The position numbers and the translations under genes were made by a program. DNA of 43,559 nt from a virus: IMG/VR virus record IMGVR_UViG_3300043436_000280, positions 1 through 43,559 of that record; one strand, given 5' to 3'. Of the stretch, positions 16,481 through 41,960 are shown piece after piece. The first letter of the stretch is position 1. Each line of letters starts with the position of its first letter. The notes under the pieces were generated by a model. It did no database searches, was not told where the DNA came from, and saw only the letters and a program-made list of their open reading frames with translations.

Positions 16481-16525
16481 TTGTTTGGTTGAGTAAAGAT
16501 ACTTATAAATTTATTTTAGTCCCAA
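16481..16525 (-). promoter_or_regulatory. Candidate promoter and AACCAAACAA leader motif
   Basis: On the minus strand TTG (16523-16525), 21 bp and TATCTTTA (16494-16501) differ from the TAnnTTTG consensus only in the last base. Three bases further on is AACCAAACAA (16481-16490), the leader decamer shared by five late genes. The promoter overlaps the end of the 430-residue gene. Confidence 0.45.
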
Positions 16526-17795
16526 TCATACCTAAATAACTTTGCGGAATAATTGGGTTAGTATTAAATCCCGTTTTTAAAGCAAAATTAAACTTAAAGC
16601 GTTTAGTAAGTGCTATATCAAAGGATGCACCTGTAAGAATCCCTATATCATCTGATGTGACAAACTTCTGTTGTGCGGTCAAGTATCCAGTAGAGCTACC
16701 TGATAAATAAATATCTGGCGAAATAGTAAGTCTTTTGCTAACCTTAACAGGGACAGTATAGAATAGCATTATGTTATTACTGATGTTAAAGCCCGCATCT
16801 GCACCAGCAACACTAAGCGTATAGTTGGCTCCTGAGACACCGTATTTCCCCAAAGGTTGAATATGTGCAGCGGTAACAAATCCAAGCGTTGTACCGCCTA
16901 AATAAACGCCTGTGACGCCAAAGTTGGAGATAGATTGTAGCTTGCCTGAATTAAAGTTCATTAATGTGTATCTGCCTGACAAAGCAAACTGGTCAAACGT
17001 AGACCATATCATAGAAGATATACCCCACGAAGAGTTTCCCATTAGAGAACTTTGACTCATTCCTACGCTTGCGATAATAGAAACGATATCACTTGCTGGA
17101 GCGACTGTAAAGTCCGAGCTATATATAATCGGATTCGCCACAGCGTTCGATTTCTTGGACTCGCTTTTCTTTTCTGATTTAGATTCTTTCTTGCTTTCAC
17201 TTTTCGATTCGGATTTAGATTCAGACTTTTCTTCGCTTTTAGACTCGCTCTTAGACTCTGACTTTGTTTCTGACTTAGACTCTGTTTTAGGAGAGCTACT
17301 CTCGCCTTGAGATGAACTACTTGAACTGCTTTGTGATGAAGAGGTTGGCGCTGGGGCTGGTGTTGATGTTACTGCGCCACTTGCTGCAGAAGATGCTGCT
17401 CCTGATGCGGCTGAGGAGGCAGCTGATGTTGCCGCAGATGTTGCTGCTGAAGTAGCTGCTGCTGTTGCAGTTGCTGTTGCTGCAGATGTAGCTTGTGCAA
17501 CCGCTTGTTGAACAGCATTTGTAACTGTTTGTTGTACAGCAACGGTAGCTTGCGGACAAGGAAAGTTAATTGTCAATTCATTAATCCACGCCTGTAGCGC
17601 TCCTGTGGTAATATCGTTTGCCGTTACTACTCTGTACTGTCCTCTATAAACTACTGTTGTCCTACCGTTAGCAAGTGGCACCGCTACGGTTGTTACTTTT
17701 CCGCTACAAGGGTCTATGAAGACTTGTGTTAGTACTTGAGAATACGCGCAAATTTGTACTGTAAGTATAAGTATAAGCGCGTAAATAAACCGCAT
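16503..17795 (-). CDS. Secreted outer-membrane-like protein with Ser/Lys/Glu-rich linker, 430 aa
   Basis: Residues 1-19 form a signal peptide (MRFIYALILILTVQICAYSQ, likely cleaved before or after the final Gln). A small Cys-containing domain follows, with DPCSGKVTTVAVP and INFPCPQ. Next come an Ala/Thr/Ser-rich helix-like stretch (about 80-145), a Ser run, and a long KSESKSE repeat (about 165-215). The C-terminal 200 residues are beta-rich with alternating Tyr/Phe/Gly strands, ending in FNFALKTGFNTNPIIPQSYL and GMIGTKINL. This resembles a small outer-membrane barrel, though the last residue is Leu rather than the usual Phe. It would reach the host envelope rather than the virion interior. It is the last gene of the lysis/envelope block. 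Surface modification or superinfection exclusion is inference. Confidence 0.65.
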   Translation of the reverse strand: MRFIYALILILTVQICAYSQVLTQVFIDPCSGKVTTVAVPLANGRTTVVYRGQYRVVTANDITTGALQAWINELTINFPCPQATVAVQQTVTNAVQQAVAQATSAATATATAAATSAATSAATSAASSAASGAASSAASGAVTSTPAPAPTSSSQSSSSSSSQGESSSPKTESKSETKSESKSESKSEEKSESKSESKSESKKESKSEKKSESKKSNAVANPIIYSSDFTVAPASDIVSIIASVGMSQSSLMGNSSWGISSMIWSTFDQFALSGRYTLMNFNSGKLQSISNFGVTGVYLGGTTLGFVTAAHIQPLGKYGVSGANYTLSVAGADAGFNISNNIMLFYTVPVKVSKRLTISPDIYLSGSSTGYLTAQQKFVTSDDIGILTGASFDIALTKRFKFNFALKTGFNTNPIIPQSYLGMIGTKINL

Positions 17796-17797
17796 AG

Positions 17798-18457
17798 TTA
17801 AGTATCTTTATTGTCTCCCACTCTAATAAATGTATATCCACCAGCAGATTTTCTGCAAGTTTTACCAAGTACTATTGCGTTTATTGATTGATGACAAACA
17901 TTTAATTCTTTCCCTGCTTTTTTTGTAGAAATAAATGTGCCTATTAATTCTTTTGTTTTTTTATCATATGCATTAATATAGCCTTTCCAACTAGGGTTAT
18001 TTATTCCTGACATCCTTACCGATTGCTCAGGGCATTTTTTCCCAAACATACCATTCTTTTCTCCAGTTAGCAAACCTTTCATAGAACTGCTTTGCTTAGG
18101 TCTTTTTCTCCCAATACTGTTAGCTATTCGCTTTTCTATCATTTCTTTTGGCTGTTTCTTCCCAGTCCAAAATCCTATTATTCCGTGTGTGCCATCTCCG
18201 CCATCTGTCATATTAGATAAACACCCATTCTTTAAATCTATCCTACCATATTTGGATATTAATTCAACTTCAATTATCAAAGCCTCCTCCCAAGATATAT
18301 TATCATATATTATCTCTACTCTGTATGACGTTTTATTGGCTATCTTTTTCCAAATAGCATTTCTATTTTTAGAATATGGTCGAATATTATTATTAGATAT
18401 ACCAATATAGAATACCTCTTCTTTGTCTTCTCTAATATGCTGATAAACTAATGCCAT
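17798..18457 (-). CDS. GIY-YIG homing endonuclease with NUMOD repeats, 219 aa
   Basis: The N-terminal nuclease domain has VYQHIREDKEEVFYIGI (the GIY and YIG strands at residues 4-19), then WKKIA and EEALIIEVELISKYGRIDL, which carries a catalytic-type Glu. It is followed by LSNMTDGGDGTHG. Two NUMOD3-like copies come next (KKQPKEMIEKRI...GRKRPK and KNGMFGKKCPEQSVRMSG). The C-terminus resembles a NUMOD1 helix-turn-helix (GTFISTKKAGKELNVCHQSI). This order is standard for free-standing phage homing endonucleases. It sits between the outer-membrane-like gene (2 bases away) and the CsgG-like gene. It appears full length and intact, with no flanking intron visible. Confidence 0.85.
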   Translation of the reverse strand: MALVYQHIREDKEEVFYIGISNNNIRPYSKNRNAIWKKIANKTSYRVEIIYDNISWEEALIIEVELISKYGRIDLKNGCLSNMTDGGDGTHGIIGFWTGKKQPKEMIEKRIANSIGRKRPKQSSSMKGLLTGEKNGMFGKKCPEQSVRMSGINNPSWKGYINAYDKKTKELIGTFISTKKAGKELNVCHQSINAIVLGKTCRKSAGGYTFIRVGDNKDT

Positions 18458-18471
18458 CTTTTATGTTTTCC

Positions 18472-18479
18472 CAAATATA
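18472..18479 (-). promoter_or_regulatory. Candidate -7 box before the GIY-YIG gene
   Basis: The minus-strand TATATTTG matches TAnnTTTG and lies 14 bases before the ATG at 18457. No convincing TTTG is found 19-21 bases further upstream, so only half of a promoter is supported. Confidence 0.3.
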
Positions 18480-18513
18480 CATAAAAGTGTTTACTCATGC
18501 TATTATTGCAACA

Positions 18514-19221
18514 TTATTTTTTATAGATACCTTTCTTAATCATTCTAACTAAGATTCTAGCGCAAGCAATATCTAAGGCTTTCTTTGTGGACGTACCAAT
18601 AGTAGATTGATTAAACTTAACTTCACTAAGATTAGCATCATTAAGTAATGACGCTTCTTTAGTTGTCTTTGCATCTCCTAATCCTGATGCAGCAAAAATT
18701 TCACCAGTCTCAGAATCTGTAAATCTCACTTGTAAGCCTAGTCGAGTTACGACAGTCTGCTTTACTCCATCTTTAAACGATATAGATTCATCTTCACTAA
18801 TAGAGAAGTCGTAGCACTCAATCGTCACGAAGTATTTGGCTAACTTAATTTTACCTCTTCCGTCTAGTTTGTTTTCAGAGATGCCAGCCTGAGAAGCCTG
18901 AAATTGCTTAACCATTCTCTGCTTTATCTCTCCCTTATCTTCAGTGAACGTAAAACGGTTAAGGTTCTCTAAGTATTCCATTGATATATTAGCTACACCA
19001 AGTCCAACTTTCTTCTCCTTTAGTTCTGGGTACTGCTCATATATTTCGTCGCTTATGCCGCATTTAAGGATTTGTATCGGTATAGTCGGACCTTCATAGT
19101 CCATTAATGAATCGATATTAATCTTCTTCTCGAATGATGCTGTGTAAGCTTCTGTCTTAACAGAGGCTACTTGAGCAGTTGCTCCAAATGAAGCTAGTAA
19201 TAGAATTAATATCTTCTTCAT
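18514..19221 (-). CDS. CsgG-like secreted protein, 235 aa
   Basis: Residues 1-16 are a signal peptide (MKKILILLLASFGATAQ) without a lipobox Cys. The mature protein has KKVGLGVANISMEYLENLNR, then IKQRMVKQFQASQAG and AKYFVTIECYDFSISEDE. It ends with RLGLQVRFTDSETGEIFAAS and FNQSTIGTSTKKALDIACAR. The run of VTIxxxxFS, xxRLxxxxxDSxTGEI and F..STIGxxTxKA matches the CsgG core. In bacteria CsgG forms the nonameric outer-membrane curli secretion pore and is a lipoprotein, so the missing anchor Cys is unusual. It is followed by the GIY-YIG gene and preceded by a 161-base gap. The family call is good; pore formation in this phage is not shown. Confidence 0.7.
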   Translation of the reverse strand: MKKILILLLASFGATAQVASVKTEAYTASFEKKINIDSLMDYEGPTIPIQILKCGISDEIYEQYPELKEKKVGLGVANISMEYLENLNRFTFTEDKGEIKQRMVKQFQASQAGISENKLDGRGKIKLAKYFVTIECYDFSISEDESISFKDGVKQTVVTRLGLQVRFTDSETGEIFAASGLGDAKTTKEASLLNDANLSEVKFNQSTIGTSTKKALDIACARILVRMIKKGIYKK

Positions 19222-19382
19222 AACGTTAATTATGTTTTACAAAATTTACAAATATGTAAATTGTAGCTTTCCTTATTATCAAAACTTGTCAAAAACTACA
19301 AGTTTCGTCAATAGTGTATATTAGTAATGCAAACCATCGGTTTGGATAATTATCATTTACCCGCCAATATTGGTTTGGATTT
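19222..19382 (-). promoter_or_regulatory. Intergenic region with hairpins before the CsgG-like gene
   Basis: Three inverted repeats are visible. They are CAAACC-ATC-GGTTTG (19330-19344), AAACTTGT-N8-ACAAGTTT (19282-19305, followed by T-rich sequence on the minus strand) and TTTACA-AATA-TGTAAA (19245-19260). A GGTTTGGAT sequence is repeated directly at about 19338 and 19371. The second hairpin could end the transcript of the membrane-protein gene, and the third lies close to the CsgG-like start. I found no exact TAnnTTTG box. Confidence 0.4.
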
Positions 19383-19691
19383 TTACCACTTAGGTTCTTC
19401 TTGTAATGCTTCTTTTTCAGTTTTCTTCTTGGGTGCCGCTGGTTTTTCTACAACCCGCTCAACAACTCTTGTGCCGCCTGCACTCGCAGCTTGCTTTTGT
19501 TGTTGCGTATTATTAGTTGTAATGTTAATTACGGGAGCTGGAGCTGTTACTGCCGCTGGTGCAGCTACTGCTTCTTCTTCGCCTGTTAATTGTTTTGTCA
19601 CATAACCGCCTATACCTAGTGCGATTGTACTTGCTAGTCCGATAAGAATGCTCTTTAACGAACCTCCTGAGTTTTCTGATTCTTCTGCCAT
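19383..19691 (-). CDS. Membrane-anchored Pro/Ala-rich protein, 102 aa
   Basis: After a short polar start (MAEESENSGGS) there is one transmembrane helix (LKSILIGLASTIALGIGGYV). A flexible Ala/Pro/Val and Gln/Asn linker follows (VTAPAPVINITTNNTQQQKQ), then a basic C-terminus (RVVERVVEKPAAPKKKTEKE). A single N-terminal helix with a Pro-rich tail is the shape of an inner-membrane protein reaching into or across the periplasm, as in spanin or TonB-like linkers. I know of no exact family. It lies directly after the lipoprotein gene in the lysis/envelope block, so an envelope-spanning partner role is plausible. Confidence 0.6.
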   Translation of the reverse strand: MAEESENSGGSLKSILIGLASTIALGIGGYVTKQLTGEEEAVAAPAAVTAPAPVINITTNNTQQQKQAASAGGTRVVERVVEKPAAPKKKTEKEALQEEPKW

Positions 19692-19692
19692 T

Positions 19693-20046
19693 TTAATTAA
19701 TTATTAAAGGTTTTTTAATTGTTACACCCGATACATCAGTTAATGTAAGGTCATATAACCCACGGGAGATTGTATCCAACTGGATACTTTTTATTGTAGC
19801 TACAGACGATGCTGTAAAGCCAACTGTTTTAAGTGGTTCGGTAGACCCAAACTTATATACCTGAATAGAGTATTTAGCTCCTACTACCGTATTTGCTACA
19901 ATAGTTGCTTGCTTACCATCTACAACCAGACTAGTAATATCTGTTAGTTGTGGAATCGAACCAAGGCTCGTTTCCTTTTCTAACACTTCAATATCTTGGC
20001 AAGCTGCCAGCATCACTATCAACAAAAATGCTATCGTCTTCTTCAT
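19693..20046 (-). CDS. Phage-encoded lipoprotein, 117 aa
   Basis: The signal sequence MKKTIAFLLIVMLAAC ends in a clear lipobox (LAAC, Cys16). After Cys the sequence is QDIEVLEKE. Acidic residues close behind the lipidated Cys are the feature that sends some Bacteroidetes lipoproteins to the cell surface, so outer-leaflet display is possible. The remaining 95 residues look like one beta-sandwich (GKQATIVANTVVGAKYSIQV, then ISRGLYDLTLTDVSGVTIKK). There are seven bases between it and the cohesin-like gene upstream and two to the next gene downstream. It could be the outer-membrane half of a two-component spanin or a surface factor. Confidence 0.65.
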   Translation of the reverse strand: MKKTIAFLLIVMLAACQDIEVLEKETSLGSIPQLTDITSLVVDGKQATIVANTVVGAKYSIQVYKFGSTEPLKTVGFTASSVATIKSIQLDTISRGLYDLTLTDVSGVTIKKPLIIN

Positions 20047-20052
20047 GTTAAC

Positions 20053-21828
20053 TTAAAAGTTATTTATTCCTGTTAATTTTATAACCTCTAGGTTTAATTT
20101 AATACCTAGCTGATATCCTGTCTTAGATGCCGCATCCATATTAGGAGACACGCGAATAAAAGTATTTATGTCAGCTCCGTTGCCTATAGTCTCGAACTTT
20201 AACTTGAACGGAGTAAATTCTCCTGTCACAGGGTTCTTTATGTCTTTGTCTATAGCACCAATTCTTACTTTGCCGTCTTTATTCTGTACAAAAGTGTACC
20301 AAGTGTTAGGCAGTTCGTTTAACAGTGCTACAAATTTAACTTTTGTTGGGTCATAAATGAACTCAAATTGTAGTGCTGCAACATTACTTGCTCCTGTATT
20401 TACTTTAACAGGTATCTCAAAACTATTAGTTGTTACAGTTTTACCAAAAATTGTAACATCAATAGATGGAATAAATTGAGGCGTGTTAATTAAAAGATGG
20501 GCTTTCTGTGTCATATCTAGGTTTTTCTTTAAACTAGGCACTGCATTAGTAGCAATAGCATTATTGATAACAACCTGCGAGCTATGACTTCTATTGATAT
20601 CTCCTGGAATTAAGAATCTAAGCTTTAAGGGAAGATTTTTGCCAATCTCAGCTGTCTTAAAGCGTACATAATTTTTATCTACATCTTTCCAATTTGCTGC
20701 TGTCATCTTGTTAAACGTAGAGTCTGTAAATGTAGGCACACTCATATACATATCTGTACCAGCGGCATAGTTAGCTGGAAGCGTAACTAAGTTTTCTACA
20801 CCAGTTACTTGTGCATATAATCGAACTAAATCTCCTCCGTCAAATTTATCGTTATAATTTACGTCTGCAGCATAATATCCTGCGCCTGTGATAATGTTCT
20901 GATTCTTAAACGTTCCGTCTAGGTTCTGTGTAACAAACTCAGCCTGCGCAGTTGTGTAGTCAGAGACAGATACTGCAGAATTAGATAGCTCCTTAATACT
21001 ATCCATATTAAATAGCGTCCTAACGTGATAAACGGTATTAGGTTGGAATCTAGTCTGGTCTACAGGAATTGTACCATCAGACAATGCATCTACTAGGTAA
21101 GTTGTATTAGCAACTGAGTCTGTAAAGGCAATTCTAGTTAGTGACTGAGCGTCCGTATTTGCGTTGTAATCAATGCTTGCTGTAACATACTTAGTAGCAG
21201 TTGGGTCTAGCATAATAACGCTTGTAAGAGGCGTTGTCATTAATGTAGCTCCAGATGTTCCATTCTGATTAAACGCTGCTGCAAAGTTCATTGCAATCGG
21301 ATTCCAAGCGTATCCAGGAGCATCTGTTTTTAATTTAAACTTAAGGACAAGTAGTCTATCCTTTCCTAAGCCACCTGATGCAATAGACCAGTTAAGATAC
21401 ACACGAAGAATTGACTTTGAGCCTCCTTGAGTATAATTATATTGAGCATTAATATAATTAGTGTTACCGTTATCTGTAGTGTTCTGGTTTGTTTTATTGT
21501 AGCTATACCCAGTATAATCTTGATGACTCATTGATATTTGAGAACCGTAAGGTATAATACCTCCGTTACCCATAGTTCCTGTATGGTTAACGCTTATAAA
21601 TTGAAATGCCGTGTTCTGATACTCAAAGTCAAAGTATAGCGCGCGAGTAGAGGTGTTGCTATTCCCGTCTGCCATCACAGTTACAAGGAACTCGTCGCCT
21701 TTGTTGATTACAGCACCGTTAACGTTAGTGTTAGTGTTTGCATTTTGCAAACTTAATTTAACTGTTTGAGCAGATGTGCTGTAGGTAAGCAGCAGAATTG
21801 CTGCAAGGATAAAGCATAGTTTTTTCAT
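20053..21828 (-). CDS. Secreted cohesin/dockerin-like protein, 591 aa
   Basis: Residues 1-20 form a signal peptide. Residues about 22-210 and 455-591 each resemble cohesin-type beta-sandwiches: KGDEFLVTVMADGNSNTSTR and ALYFDFEYQNTAFQFISV, then EIPVKVNTGASNVAALQFEF and IYDPTKVKFV. Between them DVNYNDKFDGGDLVRLYAQV has Asp322, Asn324, Asn326 and Asp333 at loop positions 1, 3, 5 and 12 of a dockerin EF-hand. PGDINRSHSS at 408 is a weaker second candidate. In cellulosomes cohesins bind dockerins. Here both occur in one chain, so self-assembly or calcium-stabilised folding is a guess. The start overlaps the stop of the periplasmic-protein gene upstream. Confidence 0.65.
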   Translation of the reverse strand: MKKLCFILAAILLLTYSTSAQTVKLSLQNANTNTNVNGAVINKGDEFLVTVMADGNSNTSTRALYFDFEYQNTAFQFISVNHTGTMGNGGIIPYGSQISMSHQDYTGYSYNKTNQNTTDNGNTNYINAQYNYTQGGSKSILRVYLNWSIASGGLGKDRLLVLKFKLKTDAPGYAWNPIAMNFAAAFNQNGTSGATLMTTPLTSVIMLDPTATKYVTASIDYNANTDAQSLTRIAFTDSVANTTYLVDALSDGTIPVDQTRFQPNTVYHVRTLFNMDSIKELSNSAVSVSDYTTAQAEFVTQNLDGTFKNQNIITGAGYYAADVNYNDKFDGGDLVRLYAQVTGVENLVTLPANYAAGTDMYMSVPTFTDSTFNKMTAANWKDVDKNYVRFKTAEIGKNLPLKLRFLIPGDINRSHSSQVVINNAIATNAVPSLKKNLDMTQKAHLLINTPQFIPSIDVTIFGKTVTTNSFEIPVKVNTGASNVAALQFEFIYDPTKVKFVALLNELPNTWYTFVQNKDGKVRIGAIDKDIKNPVTGEFTPFKLKFETIGNGADINTFIRVSPNMDAASKTGYQLGIKLNLEVIKLTGINNF

Positions 21829-22286
21829 TATAATAGCTTAGTGATTAAGGTGTTACAAGATTTCTTTAATGCAGAACTCAAGTTGGTTTGATTAAACTTA
21901 CCACCCTCGTCAATTAACAATGCAGACATTGAAACTTCTGCTGCTTGCTCCTCTACGATAACGGTCTTCTTAACCTTGCCATCCTGTATTAATCTTCCTC
22001 TCATTCTAATAACTACAGCTTCCTTATTGTTGTGGAATACTGATAGGTTAGATTGAGTTTTCAATACGTCTAAATAAAGAATCTCTACCTTAATCTGAGT
22101 TGGTGCGCTATCGGAAACATCGTGTCCTGCTTCTTGCAAGAACTCCTCTAACATATTCTTAACACCAAACTCTAAGTTTCTATTGCCAGCAAGAGCGCCA
22201 ATCTGTACATTATTCTGTACAGATGCTACAGTTATTTCTGTGGGCTTCATAAACCAAAATAACAATATGCTAAGCAATAGTCTCAT
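21828..22286 (-). CDS. Small exported protein, CsgG/LptE-like fold candidate, 152 aa
   Basis: The N-terminus MRLLLSILLFWFMKPTEITV is hydrophobic and could be a signal peptide or membrane anchor. The following domain alternates strands and helices: NLEFGVKNMLEEFLQEAGHD, then PTQIKVEILYLDVLKTQ and AVVIRMRGRLIQDGKVKKTV. It ends with ALKKSCNTLITKLL. The pattern (a GVKxxLEExLxxxG helix, an IKVEIxYLDV strand, a basic hairpin, a final helix) recalls small envelope proteins such as YajG/LptE and the N-terminal part of CsgG. The similarity is one of architecture and could be wrong. It is the first gene after the endolysin and a 41-residue gene. Confidence 0.55.
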   Translation of the reverse strand: MRLLLSILLFWFMKPTEITVASVQNNVQIGALAGNRNLEFGVKNMLEEFLQEAGHDVSDSAPTQIKVEILYLDVLKTQSNLSVFHNNKEAVVIRMRGRLIQDGKVKKTVIVEEQAAEVSMSALLIDEGGKFNQTNLSSALKKSCNTLITKLL

Positions 22287-22288
22287 AA

Positions 22289-22414
22289 TTATCCTTGCCC
22301 ACGCGAGGGTTTAGATGGGCTTTCTTTTGGACCATTTGTCTTCTTGTGCTTGCCGTTGCGACGTACACCAAATACAACCTTTCTATTCTCCGATGATGGT
22401 TTTTGCTTTGCCAT
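22289..22414 (-). CDS. Small basic protein, 41 aa
   Basis: I translated this by hand: MAKQKPSSENRKVVFGVRRN, then GKHKKTNGPKESPSKPSRGQ. The protein is strongly basic and short, ends in RGQG, and has a KPSSENR-V-G-RR-GKHKK-GPKE pattern that I recall from other Bacteroidetes phages, with no known function. The ATG overlaps the endolysin stop as TAATG. The stop lies two bases before the next start. A transcript-coupled accessory of the lysis genes is as far as the context goes. Confidence 0.65.
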   Translation of the reverse strand: MAKQKPSSENRKVVFGVRRNGKHKKTNGPKESPSKPSRGQG

Positions 22415-23265
22415 TATGCTAGTAAATGATAAAACTCGTTAAAATGCTTTTGGCGGTCAGCTAAACCAATAGTTCCACCGTTTACACGCTTAGTTACAGA
22501 AGTAACAGTTGCCATATCAGCACCCCTATCACAGATAGCCCATAAACCATTCTTCTTAAAGAAAAATGCTGCGGAGGCTAGTGCATATTTAGTTGCTACT
22601 AAGTCTGGATTAGCCGTAATATCTTCAGGAACCGTAGCATCAAATGCTTTGTAGTTTTCTTTTCCTGTCAATTGGATATAACCTCTTCCGCGGTATTTCC
22701 ATCCCTCACCAGATGCTTCGTTTCCATTACCCATACGATTAGCATAAACCTTGTTGGCAATCTTCTCTGGCTTGCGTTCGTATTGCATTGCAACAGTTAC
22801 GCTAGGGAAATACTTACGGAAGATTCCGCATAATCCTTTAGCTGAGTAGTTAAGGTTTTCCTGTGTAGCTCTAAAGCCACCTGACTCATGCCCACATTGA
22901 GAAAGAAAGTGTGCTAATCTTAATGGAGTTGTAATTCCAAAACGAGCAGCCGTATCAGGTATTGCGTCAATAACAGCTTGAGGAACGTGTCCTTTAAGAG
23001 CATCTAGCTTAAATCCTTGTGCTACAGGTGCCACAGTTGGAGCAGGAGCTACGATTGGAGCTGGAGCAGGGGTTTCTACTACTGGAGCAAACATCTTCGC
23101 CCATGTCGCATCTCCTACAATCCCATCTGGCGTCAAACCGTGGGCAGACTGCCAACCTTTAACAGCTGCCTCTGTCTTAGGACCAAACTTGCCAATAGGG
23201 TCTACGCCAAGCTTAACTTGTAGCTTAGTGACGTCCTCCCCAAATGAACCTAGTCTTAATAGCAT
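22414..23265 (-). CDS. Endolysin: peptidoglycan-binding domain plus GH19 lysozyme/chitinase domain, 283 aa
   Basis: Residues 1-60 are a PG_binding_1 domain (LRLGSFGEDVTKLQVKLGVD, then GPKTEAAVKGWQSAHGL and DGIVGDATW). A Pro/Ala linker (62-83) leads to a glycoside hydrolase 19 catalytic domain (about 95-283). Glu127 in HESGGF and Glu187 in ASGEGWKYRGRGYIQLTG are the expected catalytic acid and base. The substrate is peptidoglycan glycan strands. There is no N-terminal signal, so holin-dependent release is expected, and holin-like genes lie upstream in the same operon. The length is usual for a two-domain phage lysin. It overlaps the 41-residue gene by coupling. Confidence 0.9.
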   Translation of the reverse strand: MLLRLGSFGEDVTKLQVKLGVDPIGKFGPKTEAAVKGWQSAHGLTPDGIVGDATWAKMFAPVVETPAPAPIVAPAPTVAPVAQGFKLDALKGHVPQAVIDAIPDTAARFGITTPLRLAHFLSQCGHESGGFRATQENLNYSAKGLCGIFRKYFPSVTVAMQYERKPEKIANKVYANRMGNGNEASGEGWKYRGRGYIQLTGKENYKAFDATVPEDITANPDLVATKYALASAAFFFKKNGLWAICDRGADMATVTSVTKRVNGGTIGLADRQKHFNEFYHLLA

Positions 23266-23456: not shown

Positions 23457-24062
23457 TTATTTTAGTTTATAGTAATAACCAACGCCGTACATAACTTTAC
23501 CGTCTAAATCAACGGACGCTTTAACGTTATACAGCTGGTCTTTTTTTGTTTTAAATATCATTCCTGCCTCAGCACCCCTTATACCAATAGTGTTGTTAAT
23601 GACAATACCTCCTCCAACAAATAGGTTACGGGTAGGTGGTGCATACTTAGTAATAGTTTTAGTTTCTTTAACAACTGGTATATCAAAATTATCACGCGTT
23701 CTTCTATATGCTATCTTGTTTTCTTTTACTGAGTCTAGTAACGCAATGTATCCATATGTGCCTACGCGAATAGTATCGTGGTAGACCATCTTATTTAGAT
23801 AGAGTTGTAATAACGCCACATACTGTTGCTTTAATTTAGCATAGTTCGTGTCAGGTAACATCTCTGGTTTAGACGCAACCTCCACAATAACCTCGTAAGG
23901 TACAGGAACCTTTCTAACTATTAATGAATCGTATTTCTGCCAAGCTGTATCGTGTACAACTAGTGTATCATTAGGACGAGCTTCTCCTGCTTCCATATGC
24001 TTTGTGTAAGCATAGAAGATAGCAATCATACAACACACAAATAGGGCTATATTAACCTTCAT
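23457..24062 (-). CDS. Membrane-anchored lysis-region protein, 201 aa
   Basis: One N-terminal transmembrane helix or uncleaved signal (KVNIALFVCCMIAIFYAYTK) is followed by a long periplasmic-type region. That region is charged and helical (YAKLKQQYVALLQLYLNKMV) and has a YDSLIVRKVPVPYEVIVEV stretch. The last 55 residues are beta-rich with Gly and Asn (RNLFVGGGIVINNTIGIRGA, then GKVMYGVGYYYKLK), like a short barrel or outer-membrane binding segment. An anchored protein with periplasmic helices and a beta-rich end could bridge the two membranes like a unimolecular spanin, but no family is recognised. The start overlaps the holin-like gene. Confidence 0.6.
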   Translation of the reverse strand: MKVNIALFVCCMIAIFYAYTKHMEAGEARPNDTLVVHDTAWQKYDSLIVRKVPVPYEVIVEVASKPEMLPDTNYAKLKQQYVALLQLYLNKMVYHDTIRVGTYGYIALLDSVKENKIAYRRTRDNFDIPVVKETKTITKYAPPTRNLFVGGGIVINNTIGIRGAEAGMIFKTKKDQLYNVKASVDLDGKVMYGVGYYYKLK

Positions 24063-24342
24063 CTTCTGGAAGCGGAGCTAATCCGCCAGGTAAGTTCTTT
24101 TCGCGCTCAGCATCTGTCTTACGGTTTTGCACTTTCTCGTAAGATGAGATACCAAAACAACCAGCTGTTAATGCAGCGAATACTTCTAAGATGATTGGTT
24201 CAATAACGAACTGCTGACCAAAGTATCCTGTTGCAATATCTACTAATCCGTAGATAAAAAGAACTAAGAAAGATAAAAATCCTAGAACAGATTTTTCGTT
24301 GATGTCGTTGTCGTCAGAGAACAACTGTTTGATAAATGACAT
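24052..24342 (-). CDS. Holin-like membrane protein, 96 aa
   Basis: Two transmembrane helices are visible: SVLGFLSFLVLFIYGLVDIA and IILEVFAALTAGCFGISSYE. Between them lies a short loop (TGYFGQQFVIEP), and the C-terminus is charged (NRKTDAEREKNLPGG). A two-helix protein under 100 residues immediately upstream of a lysis gene set is the usual holin design. Holins open the inner membrane for endolysin release. The N-terminal segment SFIKQLFSDDNDINEKS is polar. The tail overlaps the next gene by 11 bases. Confidence 0.65.
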   Translation of the reverse strand: MSFIKQLFSDDNDINEKSVLGFLSFLVLFIYGLVDIATGYFGQQFVIEPIILEVFAALTAGCFGISSYEKVQNRKTDAEREKNLPGGLAPLPEDEG

Positions 24343-24381: not shown

Positions 24382-24660
24382 CTACGAGTAAACTTTGTCG
24401 TCTTCGTCTGGCTTGATTGCCACTACTTGACGCATATCTACCTGAAGTGGTAGCTTAGAAGGAGGGGTTGGTAATCGTAATCCTGTTTTGTAGATTTCGC
24501 GCTCTAGGTTGTCTATCCTTGTCTTGTCTACATTTGATTGCACAATTAATTGTTTGATGTCCGCTTTCATTTCGCTGACGTCGTGCCAAATCATTATCGA
24601 CATAATCGAAATTACTGTCGGGAATAAATAAGCTTTTAATTGCTCAATAGTATTGTCCAT
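24382..24660 (-). CDS. Single-helix membrane protein with coiled coil, 92 aa
   Basis: There is an N-terminal transmembrane helix (AYLFPTVISIMSIMIWHDVS). It is followed by a coiled-coil region (MKADIKQLIVQSNVDKTRID) and a Pro-rich linker (LRLPTPPSKLPLQ), ending in an acidic tail. This is the shape of an antiholin, holin accessory or inner-membrane spanin. A strong -33/-7 promoter ends 19 bases upstream of its ATG, so it is the first gene of the lysis/envelope transcript. No family is recognised. Confidence 0.6.
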   Translation of the reverse strand: MDNTIEQLKAYLFPTVISIMSIMIWHDVSEMKADIKQLIVQSNVDKTRIDNLEREIYKTGLRLPTPPSKLPLQVDMRQVVAIKPDEDDKVYS

Positions 24661-26179: not shown

Positions 26180-29100
26180 TTATAACAAGTTTAATTGTGC
26201 TTCTAGTTCTTCTACTCTTTTTTCAAGTCTAGCTATTTTCGCAGTGTGTACTTCGCGGTAAGAAAGACTTAATAATCCGTCCGCGCCTTTACTTACTGCG
26301 CTAGGTAATATGCCTTGTAAATCTTGAGCAAAATAACCTAGTTCCTCAACTCCATTCTTTAGGTATAGCTTTGCGGTTACGCTTTCAATTCCTTTAGTCT
26401 GGTAATTATCCTCGATTAAAGTCTTGATAGTCTTGTCCGAAGATTCAAAGAATGAACTGGCAGTCATTGAGCTACGGATAGTTAAAGCTCCATCACCATT
26501 TAATAAAAATCTACCGCCACCAATTCCTGGATAATCTACCGAGATGTTTCCAGTACCTCCAATTGATAAAGCATTTTGACCTGCGTCTGCCTCAATCCTT
26601 AATCCAGGTGAGCTAGTCGCCGCAACGACATATAATCTTGTTGCTCCTGGCGTAGTCGTTCCAATTCCTACATTTCCAGTTGAATAAGATATTCTTAAAT
26701 TAGAAGTAGCAGTGCTATGGTTGTAAATTTCTAAATCTGTGTTTGTTCCAGTTGCTCCACTTCCTACATACCAATTATTAGCCCCAGCCGTTCTAAATCT
26801 TAATCCATTACTGCCAGAAGAAGAACCTCTGTCTATTGCTAAAGAAACTGACTGAGTTCCATTACCTACTATTACATCCCCCCCACTAGTAATCCGCATA
26901 CGTTCGGTATCATTAGTAGTAAACCTCATAGCGGCAGTAGCATCAATAGCATCGATACTTGCCATATTACCTGTTCCGCTTAAATTTACTCCAAATCCAC
27001 TTGGATTTCTAACTGCTAAAACACCTCCATTTGTATTTCCTGCAATTGTTAATGTATTGTATCCACTATAAGATACAGGCGAAGTCGTTCCGATTCCTAC
27101 GTTGCCAGCGCTAGTTATTCTTAATCTCTCTGTATTGTTAGTTCCAAATCCTAAATCCTTCGCACCTCTAGCATTTATTCCAAAATTAGTAGCACCTCCA
27201 CTTCCAAAAATCTGTTGAAGTGTACCAATGTCGGCAATAGTAGTACCATTTGTTCCCCAAGTCATATAACCACCATTTGCGTTTGTACTATTAAAAGACG
27301 CAATTTGACCTCCAGATTGAGTAATTGTTAAAAATGCAGCTTGTGCATTACCGCTAAACGTTGCACTTGTAGCCGCAATTGAACTCGAAAACGTAGCTGC
27401 GCCTGAAGAGAAAATAGTAGCTTTTGTCCCACTTGAATCTGCAAATCTTAAAAAGTGATTTGTTGTATTATTAGGGGCAGCATTAGGGAAAGATATTTCA
27501 ACTCCATAAGGAGACGCTGCAGTATTTTGAATAATTAAAGCATTGTTATCTCCAAGGCTACTTAATATTCTCGAAGTACCATTTCCATTAAATCTACCAG
27601 TTCCTGTTACATCAAATTTAAATCCTGCATCAGCAGTATTCCCGATGATTACGTTTCCATTACTTAAAATAACTAATCTTGCAGTAATTGGTGAGCCTCC
27701 TGCAGCATTTGAGCTTTTAATCACAAAATCTCCTTCGATTTGGTCTTCTGTTGCAATAGCCCAATTTCTTCTTAATGTTGGATTAGAAGTTAAACTTGTT
27801 TTTAATAAAATCTCAGCACCTGCCCCCGTTCCTCCATCTGCAACAAATTGAGATTTTCCTCCGCTTGCTGTAACACTACTAGAAAATGTAGCTGCACCTG
27901 AAGCAGTAAATCTTATTATTTCACCACTAGCTGACCTAATTACTAAATCGTCGCTTGATATTGCTCTACCAAAATACATATCAGTAGCAGAAACACCTTG
28001 GAAATTTATTCCATTGTAATTATTTGTAGAGCCTCCCCATCCTAAATATAATCCTGTACCAGTACTTGGTGCAGAAGTTGAAGTAGCTCTTGCTGTCAAT
28101 TGACCTGTAAAACTTGCAGTAGTCCCATTCAGAGCTCCAGTAAGTGTGCCTCCGCCTATTGGTAAATATAACCCAGCGTGATTACCCCACCCAAAAGCTG
28201 TATTCCAATTACTAGAGTTATCAGTTATCGAAGTACCCCAAGCAGAACCAGTAGAAGTTACAATACCAGCGCCTGGATAAGTAAAGGAAAGTCCAGTACT
28301 TACCGAGCCGTCCGCCATTAAATACTCAGAAGAAGTACCACTAGCTTTAATAAATGCATTTGCAGTAATAGTACTTTTTAAAAGTGTAGCTCCTAAGTGA
28401 TTAACAGTAATAAGAGAAACCCCTCCCCTATCAACTCTGAAAGGAGTTCCAGTTGAACCAGAAGCAATGTTTACATACAATCCATTAGCACCTGCTGCCT
28501 CTGTAGTATTTGTGACAGATAAAACATAACCAGAGCTTAAGCTATTAGTTAGAGAGCCTCCCGTTAAAGGTAGGTAATTATCTAACGCACCAGTTGTGAT
28601 AAATGTTCTTACGTCAACAGAACCATCTGCTTTTAAAAATCCAGCTGAAGAACCACTAGGTATTGCAAAAGAAGTAGCAGTTACACTACTAGAGAAAGTA
28701 GCACTTGTTCCACCTAAAGCGCCTGTAAGGGTACCTCCTGATAAAGTCAGGTATGTTTCATTAACGTAGCTTATAGTTGTACCTGAAATCTTAACAAATC
28801 CAGTACCAGAAGTAAATGCTGGTTGACCACCTAATCCCGCAATGGTATAATTAGGTATATTTAAAACATTAGATGCTAAAGTAGCAGCACCACTGTTCCC
28901 TGTTGTTGTAAGAGAACTAATACGAGCTGAATATGCCGCATTCCAATTAGCAGAATTATCATCTATTGAAGTAAGCCATCCGCCTCCACCAGATACCGCT
29001 ATTCCAATGCCTGGATAATTAAATACTGCGCCAGTAGTTACAGAACCGTCAGCCATCAAGAACTGCTCTGAAGTTCCTCCCCTCTTAATAAATGAAGTAG

Positions 29101-31894
29101 CAATCATACTATTGCCAACACCCGCACTAATATTACCTGTTTCTTGTATTAATAATTTATAAGCTCCTGAAGTTTGATTTAAAATATAGAAATTACCTTC
29201 ATCTATAAAAATCGTATAATCTGGATTGCTATCAGTATCTGTAAAATACAATCTTGGGTTAGTCCCGCTAATATATATATTATCAGTAAATACAGGATTT
29301 GTAAGGCTTGCTTTTCCATTAAATGTAATCCAATCAGCAGACGACAAAGCACCTCTATTAGTAGCAGATGCAGTAGGTAGATTAAAAGTATGTGTAGCTG
29401 TTGAACTTGATATGTTAAAATCAGTACCACTTGTGCCTGTTGCAAAATATTGTACTTGTGCAGTTAAGCCATTTAAAGCACTTAATCCTGAACTAAATGT
29501 AGTTACAACTTGACAAAGATGTCCATTCTCTGTATGTAATGTAATTGTCCTTCCTGCCGTATTTACATAAATACGAATTGCCAATCTATCTGTTAATGTT
29601 AATGTTGTTTGCGGAACCGCTAATGCACTAAAATAAGCCTCAATGTTTGCTCCATCATTAATCAATTTAGGTGTACCGCTATTTGATGCAATAAGAGTAA
29701 ATGTAGTGCCATCATATTTGTACAACTCAATGTAAAAACTTGGACTACCTCCACCATTTGATGCCTGTAAATATGTTTCAAAATTCCAATTACCCGCAGG
29801 AATATTCAATAAAGCAGGGTCATTAGCATCAGTTAAAAATGATGCAATATATCCGTTTGAACTTCTTGAAAAATCTGTACCAGCACCTATAATTGGCACT
29901 TTATTCATTTCATAATAAGTAACTCCACCTATTGTACCTTGATTTATTGAACCATTTAAATAATAAGATACACCACCTCCACCACCACCACCACCTGCTG
30001 GCAAAACAGCTAAAGTACCATCACCTCTAATATATTGAGAAGCTAACCCTGTTGGATTATTAAATTTGGCATTTAAAGCATCTTGTAAATCTGTCTGATT
30101 AGATAATGTTCCTGTAATTCCTCCCCAAACAGTTCCAACAGTAGGAGATATTTCTACATATACACTTCCTGTCCAACGATAGATTTTATTAGTATCTAAT
30201 GTAATATAAATCTTTCCAGTCTCACCTGTTGCAGGTAATGCTGCTACGTTAGCCGCTTCTAATACATCATCAACATAAGAAGGAAGCTGCGTAGAAGGAA
30301 CTTTACCTGTACTATCTAATCCAGCATATCCATTATTAACTCCTTTGTTAGCAGCATTCTCAGGAGTAAATCCTAAAGCAGTAGTTATTTGACCAGAATT
30401 GATTCCTGTTAAATAAACAGATGTATCAAGTTCGTAAGTATTAGCAGCAGTCTTTCTTATCAAACCACTTGTCCCAGCTAATTCCGCAATTGCAGTTAAA
30501 TCAGCATCTAATGTTTGATAAGATGTCGTATCTAAAGTCCAAGTGTTAGCAGATGTTTTCTTTAAAAATCCACTTGTTCCAGCTAATGCTGCAATAGCAG
30601 TTAAGTCTGCGTCTAATACTTGATAAGATGTAGTATCTAAACTCCAAGTATTTGCAGATACCTTGGTCAAAATACCAGCTGCTCCAGCAAGAGCTGCAAT
30701 AGCAGTTAAGTCGCCATCTAAAGGTTGATAATTAGAAGATGCAGAACCTGTTGTTAAGTAGGTATTTGCATCAACACTCCCGTCTGCCTTTAAAAACTGA
30801 GAAGATATGCCACCTGATTTAACAATGGATGTGCCTTGGATAGTTCCATTAACATCTAATGTAGTTGTAGGCGTTTTACCAATACCAATTCTATTAGTAT
30901 CTTCTTTAATAATGCTATCTCCAAGGGTCGCAGTTCCTGTAAACTTAGGAATAGTTCCAGTTGTACCAGAACCAGTTAAAGATGTAGTGAAATTAATAGT
31001 AAACGGCAACATCTGAGTTGCCTTGTATGTATAAGAACTTGCAGGAGGAAGTAATCCTAATAATTGGTCTAAAATAGCTTTAGAGCCATCAAGTGTAGTA
31101 GTTTGATATCTAGCAATAATATGAGAATACAATGCTAATACTAAATCGTATTGCTCATTCATTATCTCATACTGACTAGGATTGGTTGACTTATATGCCT
31201 CAATCTGGTCTTTATAGGTATTCATTAAAGCAACTAACTCATCTTGAGTAGGAGCTTCTCTTACGTCAAATGTTTCTTGCAGTAAATCTGTATAAGCAAC
31301 AGTCAACCAAGACTTAGAAGTGTGCGTATAAGCCACCGAAATATCAGAGTTGACAAGATATATACCCTCGTAGTATTTCGTTAAGTGAGAGGGCGTTAAA
31401 ATGTCTCCTACACTAGTCTTTGTAATTACTCCTACCTCACTTGTTGAAGGAGTTGTTGTATAAAAGTTTCTAGTTAAAACTCCTGTAAAACTACCCGAAG
31501 TTTCATAAGCAGTTAAGTCCTTAAATTGAACCTCTGGTAAAACAACATCTGAATCATTAATGATTGTTTTAGCAGGTTTCTCCCAGTTAAAGTCAAACGT
31601 TTCCGTTTTATTATATTCGTTTAAAGACGTATCTAAGGCAACATAATTAATTACATATGTTCCAGTTAAGACAGTATTATCAATATCTGTTATTAAAGAT
31701 ATGCTTGTATTTCCTCCTGGAGCACTAATCTCAGGTGATGAAAAGTCTGTGTTTGATACCACAGAGCCATCTGGGAACGTAACTATAAAGTTACCTTTAG
31801 ATAAGGTAAACCCTGTTGATGTATCTGTTAAACGTAAAACCCTAGTCGAGGTCTTTTCGTTTACAATAAATTGTGCTGAAAAATTTATAGCCAT
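26180..31894 (-). CDS. Giant tail fibre with C-terminal S74 intramolecular chaperone, 1904 aa
   Basis: The N-terminal ~300 residues form beta domains, with TSTRVLRLTDTSTGFTLSKG near the start. Three tandem copies of a 35-residue repeat follow (LTAIAALAGTSGFLKKTSAN type, about residues 385-495). Long fibre repeats come next, with recurring FLKADGSVD / FLMADGSV and ATFSSSVTA motifs and GNVGIGTTSP turns. The last 87 residues match Peptidase_S74: SSDKTIKTLIED, then GYFAQDLQGILPSAV and SLSYREVHTAKIARLEKRVE, a C-terminal coiled coil. These domains trimerise fibres and cleave themselves off at the Ser of the (S)SDK motif (about 1818). It binds the host cell surface. A -7 box precedes the ATG. Confidence 0.9.
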   Translation of the reverse strand: MAINFSAQFIVNEKTSTRVLRLTDTSTGFTLSKGNFIVTFPDGSVVSNTDFSSPEISAPGGNTSISLITDIDNTVLTGTYVINYVALDTSLNEYNKTETFDFNWEKPAKTIINDSDVVLPEVQFKDLTAYETSGSFTGVLTRNFYTTTPSTSEVGVITKTSVGDILTPSHLTKYYEGIYLVNSDISVAYTHTSKSWLTVAYTDLLQETFDVREAPTQDELVALMNTYKDQIEAYKSTNPSQYEIMNEQYDLVLALYSHIIARYQTTTLDGSKAILDQLLGLLPPASSYTYKATQMLPFTINFTTSLTGSGTTGTIPKFTGTATLGDSIIKEDTNRIGIGKTPTTTLDVNGTIQGTSIVKSGGISSQFLKADGSVDANTYLTTGSASSNYQPLDGDLTAIAALAGAAGILTKVSANTWSLDTTSYQVLDADLTAIAALAGTSGFLKKTSANTWTLDTTSYQTLDADLTAIAELAGTSGLIRKTAANTYELDTSVYLTGINSGQITTALGFTPENAANKGVNNGYAGLDSTGKVPSTQLPSYVDDVLEAANVAALPATGETGKIYITLDTNKIYRWTGSVYVEISPTVGTVWGGITGTLSNQTDLQDALNAKFNNPTGLASQYIRGDGTLAVLPAGGGGGGGGVSYYLNGSINQGTIGGVTYYEMNKVPIIGAGTDFSRSSNGYIASFLTDANDPALLNIPAGNWNFETYLQASNGGGSPSFYIELYKYDGTTFTLIASNSGTPKLINDGANIEAYFSALAVPQTTLTLTDRLAIRIYVNTAGRTITLHTENGHLCQVVTTFSSGLSALNGLTAQVQYFATGTSGTDFNISSSTATHTFNLPTASATNRGALSSADWITFNGKASLTNPVFTDNIYISGTNPRLYFTDTDSNPDYTIFIDEGNFYILNQTSGAYKLLIQETGNISAGVGNSMIATSFIKRGGTSEQFLMADGSVTTGAVFNYPGIGIAVSGGGGWLTSIDDNSANWNAAYSARISSLTTTGNSGAATLASNVLNIPNYTIAGLGGQPAFTSGTGFVKISGTTISYVNETYLTLSGGTLTGALGGTSATFSSSVTATSFAIPSGSSAGFLKADGSVDVRTFITTGALDNYLPLTGGSLTNSLSSGYVLSVTNTTEAAGANGLYVNIASGSTGTPFRVDRGGVSLITVNHLGATLLKSTITANAFIKASGTSSEYLMADGSVSTGLSFTYPGAGIVTSTGSAWGTSITDNSSNWNTAFGWGNHAGLYLPIGGGTLTGALNGTTASFTGQLTARATSTSAPSTGTGLYLGWGGSTNNYNGINFQGVSATDMYFGRAISSDDLVIRSASGEIIRFTASGAATFSSSVTASGGKSQFVADGGTGAGAEILLKTSLTSNPTLRRNWAIATEDQIEGDFVIKSSNAAGGSPITARLVILSNGNVIIGNTADAGFKFDVTGTGRFNGNGTSRILSSLGDNNALIIQNTAASPYGVEISFPNAAPNNTTNHFLRFADSSGTKATIFSSGAATFSSSIAATSATFSGNAQAAFLTITQSGGQIASFNSTNANGGYMTWGTNGTTIADIGTLQQIFGSGGATNFGINARGAKDLGFGTNNTERLRITSAGNVGIGTTSPVSYSGYNTLTIAGNTNGGVLAVRNPSGFGVNLSGTGNMASIDAIDATAAMRFTTNDTERMRITSGGDVIVGNGTQSVSLAIDRGSSSGSNGLRFRTAGANNWYVGSGATGTNTDLEIYNHSTATSNLRISYSTGNVGIGTTTPGATRLYVVAATSSPGLRIEADAGQNALSIGGTGNISVDYPGIGGGRFLLNGDGALTIRSSMTASSFFESSDKTIKTLIEDNYQTKGIESVTAKLYLKNGVEELGYFAQDLQGILPSAVSKGADGLLSLSYREVHTAKIARLEKRVEELEAQLNLL
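30416..30730. repeat. Three tandem ~105 bp coding repeats in the fibre gene
   Basis: The sequence encodes three 35-residue units of the form YQxLDADLTAIAALAGTSGF, then LKKTSANTWTLDTTS. The units differ by a few residues. This is the only exact tandem repeat in the fibre and would let its length change by recombination. Confidence 0.7.
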
Positions 31895-41200: not shown

Positions 41201-41316
41201 TAAAATTCAACCATAGGGTATGGTCATTTTTTACCAGAGGGTATGGTCAAATTCAACCATAGGGGGTATGGTCATTTTTTACCAGAGGGGTATGGTAAAA
41301 TTCAACCATAGGGTAT
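41201..41316. repeat. 2.4 tandem copies of a 47-49 bp palindromic repeat
   Basis: The unit has the order AAATTCA-ACCATAGGGTATGGT-CATTTTTT-ACCAGAGGGTATGGT. Copies start at 41201, 41248 and 41297 (partial). Each contains a perfect hairpin, ACCATA-GGG-TATGGT, and an imperfect one, ACCAGAGGGTATGGT, about 24 bp apart. The array begins at the stop of the 214-residue gene and lies about 170 bp upstream of the putative small terminase. A packaging site, regulatory site or iteron-type array is possible. Confidence 0.8.
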
Positions 41317-41960
41317 CAGTCTTTAGAACATAAAATATCCCCCTGACGCACTGTATAGTACTCTTTTCCCTCGATGGTATTTTTAAAATTTGAATTTTTA
41401 TTCAAGATTACTAATGCACCTCTGCCTATTTTCAACTCATCTTCTCCAACTAATGGTCGACCAATGTGAGACAATCGAGCGAACTTAGTTGATGGCTTTT
41501 TATTGATACCAATTACTAGTCCAGATGCCGATGTTATAGCTTCAATTTTCTGACCATCAACTTCAACTTGATTGAAATCTTCCTCAACCACCGTTTCACA
41601 TAAAGTCCAGCCACCAACAGGTAATATATTACCACTCCTAACGACACAAAATATCCAATAATAAGGTACTTTATAATAGTTGCCGTAGATACAGTTCGTT
41701 TCATCGGATGTAGTTAAGTAATGAAAGTAAATAATGTCTCCAACCTGCACTTCTTTTTCTATCTCAAAAGACTCTTCGTTATAAGCTTTCCCTTCTGGCA
41801 CAGCTATTACGCGACCATATATTCTAGCGTACTGCGTAGGATTAAATTCAGGGTCTATATGGAGCTTTAAATTACCGTATTGGACAGTGTCATCCATTGA
41901 AGCACCAACCTCAACCACAACAGTATTTGGTGGCGATTTTTTGATATCGTAAGTAAGCAT
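41316..41960 (-). CDS. Uncharacterised beta-rich protein, 214 aa
   Basis: This is the first gene on the late strand. It is beta-rich throughout, with PPNTVVVEVGASMDDTVQYG, then ARIYGRVIAVPEGKAYNEES, VQVGDIIYFHYLTTSDETN and LSHIGRPLVGEDELKIGRGA. The arrangement VxVGDxIYFHY...GDILCSK recalls small barrel domains of the GroES/chaperonin-10 kind, and some phages encode such proteins, but I cannot confirm it. A canonical-looking promoter and the leader motif lie just upstream. The stop is the first base of the repeat array. No membrane segment or catalytic motif is seen. Confidence 0.6.
   Translation of the reverse strand: MLTYDIKKSPPNTVVVEVGASMDDTVQYGNLKLHIDPEFNPTQYARIYGRVIAVPEGKAYNEESFEIEKEVQVGDIIYFHYLTTSDETNCIYGNYYKVPYYWIFCVVRSGNILPVGGWTLCETVVEEDFNQVEVDGQKIEAITSASGLVIGINKKPSTKFARLSHIGRPLVGEDELKIGRGALVILNKNSNFKNTIEGKEYYTVRQGDILCSKD

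Follow-up and report, generated by a model that had tools for sequence, protein, structure and literature searches.

A conserved envelope gene set combining a CsgG-like fold with an exported cohesin protein in Bacteroidota phages

Six envelope genes follow the endolysin gene of a tailed phage

The IMG/VR virus record IMGVR_UViG_3300043436_000280, analysed here over its full 43,559 bases (the window), encodes a cluster of exported and membrane proteins in a 5.8 kb region at positions 16503-22286. An earlier reading of the letters by a model, made without database searches (the sequence-only reading), had taken this whole interval as an envelope module; all six envelope proteins were found there, all on the - strand, but positions 17798-18457 (-) belong to a GIY-YIG/NUMOD1 homing endonuclease (Pfam NUMOD1, E = 1.1e-6), a mobile insertion and not a member of the module. 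The order on the - strand is endolysin, lptE152 (21828-22286), coh591 (20053-21828), lipo117 (19693-20046), tm102 (19383-19691), csgG235 (18514-19221), the homing endonuclease and barrel430 (16503-17795). Neighbouring genes overlap or stand apart by a few bases, with three wider gaps: about 128 bp ahead of lptE152, 161 bp ahead of csgG235 and 56 bp ahead of the endonuclease.

The window portal protein was nearest to those of Cellulophaga phages phi38:1 and phi40:1, the Flavobacterium elemo phages and one uncultured caudovirus (25-29% identity), and PHROGs matches were obtained for TerL and several virion proteins. Based on these relatives and matches, the window is probably a tailed phage with a host in the Flavobacteriales, within the Bacteroidota, a large bacterial group of water and gut.

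The gene set is co-inherited across phage lineages

Loci were gathered with csgG235, coh591 and the CsgG-like protein of Flavobacterium phage immuto as queries, and co-occurrence was scored in the 112 viral contigs whose csgG is flanked by 6 kb or more on each side. An lptE gene and a barrel gene lay beside csgG in all 112 contigs, the linker gene in 109 and a cohesin gene in 105. Conservation over more than 100 contigs is far above chance, indicating that the module is a real, phage-specific unit. A search for the same cluster in other Bacteroidetes phages, which the sequence-only reading had suggested, thus recovered a co-inherited set in these contigs and in immuto. As sequences and models show, a CsgG-fold protein, its short paralogue, a linker and a 12-stranded barrel are inherited together with the exported cohesin protein, and many Bacteroidota viruses carry this conserved set of about six genes.

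Relatives of csgG235 were detected by an alignment scan in at least 507 IMG/VR contigs, with lengths up to more than 300 kb. Among 50,697 phage records a relative occurred only in immuto (four records), and 84,980 species genomes yielded two matches, both on contigs of metagenome-assembled genomes (MAGs); the single match in 397 host-family genomes was the query MAG itself. A host-derived origin of csgG235 was dismissed on the basis of the two matches among the species genomes and of locus L112, whose contig, at 254 kb the longer of the two, also encodes an endolysin nearby. This contig, in MAG CAIWBA010000291.1, is probably a jumbo phage contig mis-binned into a Bacteroidetes MAG. It also carries a ribose-phosphate pyrophosphokinase-like gene and, after the module, a second barrel and dockerin-like protein.

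The carriers are diverse, comprising the phi38:1-like podovirus group (as indicated by the window portal), the myovirus immuto and contigs of more than 300 kb. At a csgG identity of about 0.75, median identities were 0.42 for lptE, 0.25 for the cohesin protein and 0.18 for the barrel. This pattern suggests a conserved machine with variable cargo, in which the outward parts diversify and csgG235 is the slowest-evolving part of the module.

csgG235 is predicted to have a CsgG-like core fold

Searches of PHROGs, Pfam and the PDB with the sequence of csgG235 (235 amino acids, with a signal peptide) and with its alignment returned no match, and its fold was therefore assigned from a structure model. 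The AlphaFold2 model, built from 22 phage homologues, had a mean predicted local distance difference test score (pLDDT) of 76.4 and a predicted template modelling (TM) score of 0.71, with the topology beta-helix-beta-helix-long beta hairpin-beta-helix. In Foldseek, the CsgG structures 6l7c, 4uv2 and 4uv3 ranked first among PDB entries (E = 1e-6 to 1e-5, probability 1.0, TM-score about 0.5, with a large root-mean-square deviation), followed by PelC, HpaA, FlgT and LptE, members of the same fold group, and the only strong viral match was a phage protein annotated as CsgG (E = 2.8e-7). Since CsgG ranked first and the sole strong viral match carries that annotation, the modelled core fold of csgG235 is CsgG-like. 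The protein had been read beforehand as a CsgG core without a lipobox Cys, and both points held, as the mature N-termini of 22 aligned homologues have no lipobox Cys. A crude tally giving a lipobox in 28 of 131 csgG proteins was discarded in favour of the alignments because it counted Cys residues within the hydrophobic core.

None of 21 family members matched the Pfam CsgG domain (PF03783). Alignment of the family with Flavobacteriaceae CsgG in hhalign gave a probability of 0.5%, which leaves cellular CsgG without a significant match at profile level, and profile comparison with other CsgG-domain proteins of Flavobacteriaceae was also negative. A CsgG subunit has two membrane hairpins. The csgG235 model, which is a prediction of the monomer, has a single long hairpin at residues 130-169, and the invariant D144 and E145 sit on it. 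With no lipobox, one hairpin against the two of CsgG and these two acidic residues on the hairpin, pore formation by csgG235 is at most putative.

The short periplasmic protein lptE152 (152 amino acids), of CsgG/LptE/YajG-like appearance, showed a weak match to Pfam Lipoprotein_16 (E = 7e-4) and matched the csgG235 family profile (E = 2.1e-5), sharing a KFNQ...KKA motif with it. These matches are in line with the CsgG/LptE shape proposed earlier, and lptE152 is likely a paralogue of csgG235. Because several of its homologues carry a long N-terminal hydrophobic anchor instead of a clean signal peptide, lptE152 may be tethered to the inner membrane.

The exported proteins carry cohesin, dockerin-like and lectin domains

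The secreted, adhesin-like coh591 begins with an N-terminal beta region and carries a Pfam Cohesin domain at residues 469-540 (E = 1.2e-5, over the gathering cut-off), a domain present in 24 of 28 homologues. With the modelled csgG235, both the CsgG and the cohesin folds named in the sequence-only reading were recovered. Its middle region (about 226-449) is homologous to the dockerin-like module of a jumbo-phage homologue (probability 94%, E = 1.1e-7) and has one good EF-hand calcium loop, DVNYNDKFDGGD, at residues 322-333. Of the cohesin-like ends and dockerin-like EF-hand that had been proposed, the C-terminal cohesin and the EF-hand loop were thus supported, and the N-terminal end only weakly so (hhalign probability 52%).

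In immuto the set corresponds to gp013-gp019. A C-type lectin and a dockerin-like tail make up gp013, gp014 is a beta domain whose tail is related to that of gp013 (E = 2.6e-8), and gp015 combines a cohesin with the sorting domain of the type IX secretion system (T9SS). In jumbo-size contigs the counterparts of gp014 and gp015 are fused in one protein (profile matches with E = 1e-29 to 3e-34), and coh591 has the domain order of this fusion, a dockerin-like module and then a cohesin. The lectin and dockerin-like domains of the module are either fused to the cohesin protein or located on a second protein. A similarity between the lectin and tail fibres was also considered, and the idea that the lectin is a copy of a tail fibre was dismissed, since zero similarity was found within immuto.

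We then took a domain census of 75 sampled proteins at cohesin/lectin positions. Lectin_C was found in 33, Cohesin in 29, Por_Secre_tail in 23, Laminin_G_3 in seven, Dockerin_1 in seven, PA14 in two, and CHU_C and a SprB repeat in one each; GEVED was also among the domains. Lectin, laminin-G, PA14, cohesin and similar domains are typical of Bacteroidota surface adhesins. As the domains of its relatives indicate, the exported part of the module is probably an adhesin. The expectation of a surface layer or outer-membrane structure on a Bacteroidota host was strengthened by the T9SS sorting and lectin domains of these homologues.

A sorting-domain-like lipoprotein alternates with the T9SS tail

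A C-terminal sorting domain on an exported protein, as expected of T9SS cargo, was found in 23 of the 75 homologues, including immuto gp015. The presence of a lipoprotein in the window had been anticipated and was borne out by the lipobox Cys16 of lipo117, which is invariant in 28 of 28 homologues. The body of lipo117 resembles a T9SS C-terminal sorting domain (CTD). Por_Secre_tail was matched by nine of the 28 homologues (best E = 5.8e-6), and a CTD hidden Markov model (HMM) matched three family members at 0.0008-0.0011; a single-sequence hhalign comparison of lipo117 with the immuto CTD was uninformative (probability 6%). In 118 scored loci, 49 had the lipoprotein only, 53 the CTD only, 15 neither and one both. 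The sole overlap, L015, arises because its lipoprotein is what the CTD model scored, and in several of the 15 loci with neither, a weaker lipo-like gene lies close to the cohesin gene. The likeness to the CTD is thus drawn from the Pfam matches, the CTD HMM and this mutual exclusion, which suggests that the lipo117-type lipoprotein and the sorting domain are alternatives. Both states track phage lineages, so the alternation does not represent many independent events. The lipid-anchored version of the sorting domain may hold the cohesin protein where the T9SS tail is lacking.

A 12-stranded barrel and an inner-membrane linker complete the set

In barrel430, a signal peptide and a small domain with invariant Cys 30 and 80 precede an Ala-rich helix and a disordered linker rich in Ser, Lys and Glu. 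The AlphaFold2 model places twelve beta strands at residues 223-429 (pLDDT mostly 80-90) after the helix and linker, in agreement with the beta-barrel-like protein with a Ser/Lys/Glu linker described before. A multi-stranded barrel together with a signal peptide is what an outer-membrane beta-barrel protein is expected to have. The top Foldseek match was FapF, the Pseudomonas amyloid exporter, with OmpG, NanC, KdgM and others nearly equal. Because these other barrels score almost as well, the model supports an outer-membrane barrel, and an identity as FapF as such is unsupported. The predicted inner-membrane linker, tm102, already recognised as such in the sequence-only reading, has one N-terminal transmembrane segment and an N/Q-rich periplasmic tail, and its architecture is conserved across loci.

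csgG alleles appear to be exchanged next to a homing endonuclease

A close relative, L005, has no homing endonuclease gene at this site. Nucleotide identity between the two loci falls from about 87% in the flanks, with a range of about 83-92%, to 75.7% in csgG235 alone, and the drop spans exactly the csgG gene adjoining the endonuclease. In the csgG tree the window clusters with loci that lack its structural genes, and its genome relatives fall outside this cluster (support 0.95). The identity drop and the tree placement fit an allele swap by co-conversion with the endonuclease, and suggest that csgG alleles may work interchangeably between unrelated phages. Related homing endonucleases also occur elsewhere in or near the module, in L004 and L084 (between the lipo and tm genes), L155 and L157, as if the module were a favoured target of such elements.

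Lysis genes lie near the module

The endolysin gene (22414-23265, -), which carries PG_binding_1 and a GH19-type domain according to Pfam and PHROGs, lies directly upstream of the module in transcription order. Further upstream, p96 (24052-24342, -) encodes a protein with two transmembrane segments, whose relatives in large phages are encoded within the module; it had no Pfam match, and the holin-like label is thus inferred from sequence and linkage. Two further small proteins near the endolysin (23457-24062 and 24382-24660), each with an N-terminal transmembrane segment and a periplasmic tail, are candidate i-spanins. In immuto, the holin gp190, the endolysin gp191 and the i-spanin-like gp187 are located at 43.7-46.2 kb, apart from the module at 10.5-16.4 kb. 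An Ala/Gly/His-rich repetitive protein, gp188 (L292:44984-45823), is encoded between the holin and the i-spanin-like gene.

A predicted adhesin layer on the infected cell and its alternatives

We propose, with somewhat less than even confidence, that the genes form a phage-specific envelope module by which an infected Bacteroidota cell is made to present an adhesin at its surface, in order to mask receptors or exclude rival phages. Surface display as such is well supported by the predicted domains, and the purpose of the displayed layer is what we infer; a role in superinfection exclusion is plausible. The cohesin protein would reach the outer face through the host T9SS where a sorting domain is present, and in the window the sorting-domain-like lipoprotein would keep it at the outer membrane. 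The barrel and rings of the CsgG-fold protein, tied to the inner membrane by the linker, could act as an anchor or assembly platform for the adhesin. Cohesin-dockerin-like contacts might then build the lectin heads into a sugar-binding, velcro-like layer, and the layer would mask surface glycans such that competing phages or released progeny do not attach to the dying cell or to what is left of it. More tentatively still, the module can be pictured as a phage-built surface organelle, in which a trans-envelope base of CsgG-fold rings, 12-stranded barrel and linker would anchor a cellulosome-like cohesin/dockerin scaffold with exchangeable lectin heads, T9SS-delivered or lipoprotein-held, and which would be exchanged among Bacteroidota podoviruses, myoviruses and jumbo phages.

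Several findings weigh against this explanation. The coh591 of the window has no T9SS sorting domain, and the immuto lectin protein has no detectable domain in common with the immuto tail fibres, so the idea that lectin and virion recognise one receptor is unsupported. The module also adjoins holin-like or endolysin genes in most loci, which suggests late expression, when exclusion would be less important. This neighbourhood leads to the strongest rival, which we nevertheless regard as doubtful: breaching of the outer membrane in the last step of lysis, with tm102 and lipo117 as a spanin-like pair and the CsgG-fold rings and barrel perforating or tearing the membrane after the endolysin has acted. 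Of the 112 scored loci, 97 have a holin-like gene and 80 an endolysin within 10 kb, almost always in the same orientation; in the window, the module comes directly after the endolysin, an N-terminal transmembrane protein stands beside an outer-membrane lipoprotein as in spanins, and a lysis role has been proposed for phage CsgGF (PMC9004378). However, spanins need one or two proteins and no lectin or cohesin head, the CTD-bearing half of the loci lacks lipo117, and immuto keeps its holin, endolysin and i-spanin-like genes away from the module. The lysis role offered by the sequence-only reading is thus backed by circumstantial gene neighbourhood and opposed by the separate immuto cassette.

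That reading had also raised curli-like export, with the CsgG-fold protein as an outer-membrane pore secreting the cohesin protein. The fold of csgG235, the resemblance of the barrel to the amyloid exporter barrel FapF and the complete curli modules of pelagiphages (PMC9599517) speak for it. The missing lipidation, the absence of a significant profile match to cellular CsgG, and the single predicted hairpin with invariant D144/E145 instead of two argue against it, as does the T9SS domain borne by many cargos (53 of the 118 scored loci); Pfam scans of the module proteins and their neighbours found no CsgA/CsgB amyloid repeats and no CsgF or CsgE. We therefore consider such export quite unlikely. 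The displayed lectins might instead stick infected cells to particles or to other cells nearby and so bring progeny to new hosts, a "sibling capture" proposed for pelagiphage curli (PMC7029224). The variable lectin, PA14 and laminin-G domains agree with this unlikely alternative, but receptor masking fits the same data and nothing separates the two. Decoration of the virion with module proteins is hardly credible; lectin-fold domains do occur in some phage receptor-binding proteins, but the signal peptides, lipobox, outer-membrane barrel and T9SS domains, and the position of the module outside the structural block in immuto, point to the envelope.

Relation to known systems

The curli (type VIII) modules of pelagiphages and methylophages, with CsgG, CsgF, CsgA/B and FecR (PMC9599517, PMC7029224, PMC9004378), likewise pair a phage CsgG-fold protein with an exported surface protein and occur across phage families. 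Pelagiphage curli have been suggested to serve exclusion and sibling capture (PMC9599517, PMC7029224), and phage CsgGF to control lysis (PMC9004378). The present module differs in its host phylum, in lacking CsgF, CsgA/B and FecR, and in adding cohesin, dockerin and lectin domains, a barrel, a linker and a T9SS domain; csgG235 also has no significant HMM match to CsgG, in a comparison that covered cellular and not pelagiphage CsgG sequences. We did not assign the module to the type VIII systems, because the fold agrees with CsgG but the sequence, lipidation and partners do not. Beside the pelagiphage curli modules, it may be a second case in which phages recruited a CsgG-fold protein, apparently independently.

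The accessible text on Cryophage T9SS cargo genes (PMC7468147) describes Bacteroidota phage proteins with T9SS sorting domains, including a PA14 protein, that are highly variable between strains, and suggests competition or exclusion as their role, providing a precedent for the masking or exclusion proposed here; a CsgG/barrel/linker module is not described in that text. By analogy with cellulosome-type assembly, the cohesin and dockerin-like EF-hand modules, which are carried by separate exported proteins or combined in one, are predicted to bind each other, whereas no catalytic subunits were found in the module. FapF shares a 12-stranded barrel after a periplasmic helix and linker, but at the level of fold only (TM-score 0.5-0.6 of the target, 6-9% identity), with other outer-membrane barrels scoring nearly equally. 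The Rz/Rz1 spanins also pair an inner-membrane protein with a periplasmic tail and an outer-membrane lipoprotein near the endolysin, as tm102 and lipo117 do, but this module has six or more proteins with adhesin heads, and the lipoprotein is lacking in about half of the loci.

Searching the literature for cohesins in phages, or for CsgG together with cohesin, returned nothing relevant, and no earlier description of the gene set was found in the literature covered. What is new is the set of parts, while phage-encoded remodelling of the host surface is known. The CsgG-like marker of at least 507 viral contigs is unannotated in immuto, its sole cultured carrier, whose annotation names the lectin and cohesin proteins only, suggesting that a strategy common among Bacteroidota phages may have gone unnoticed. 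Immuto offers a testable system for phage remodelling of the infected Gram-negative cell surface.

Other features of the window

A GroES-like co-chaperonin gene (41316-41960; PHROG match, 2e-10) lies near the packaging genes. Positions 26180-31894 encode a protein of 1904 amino acids with a peptidase-family stretch at residues 509-584 and a virion-structural or tail-fibre-like C-terminus.

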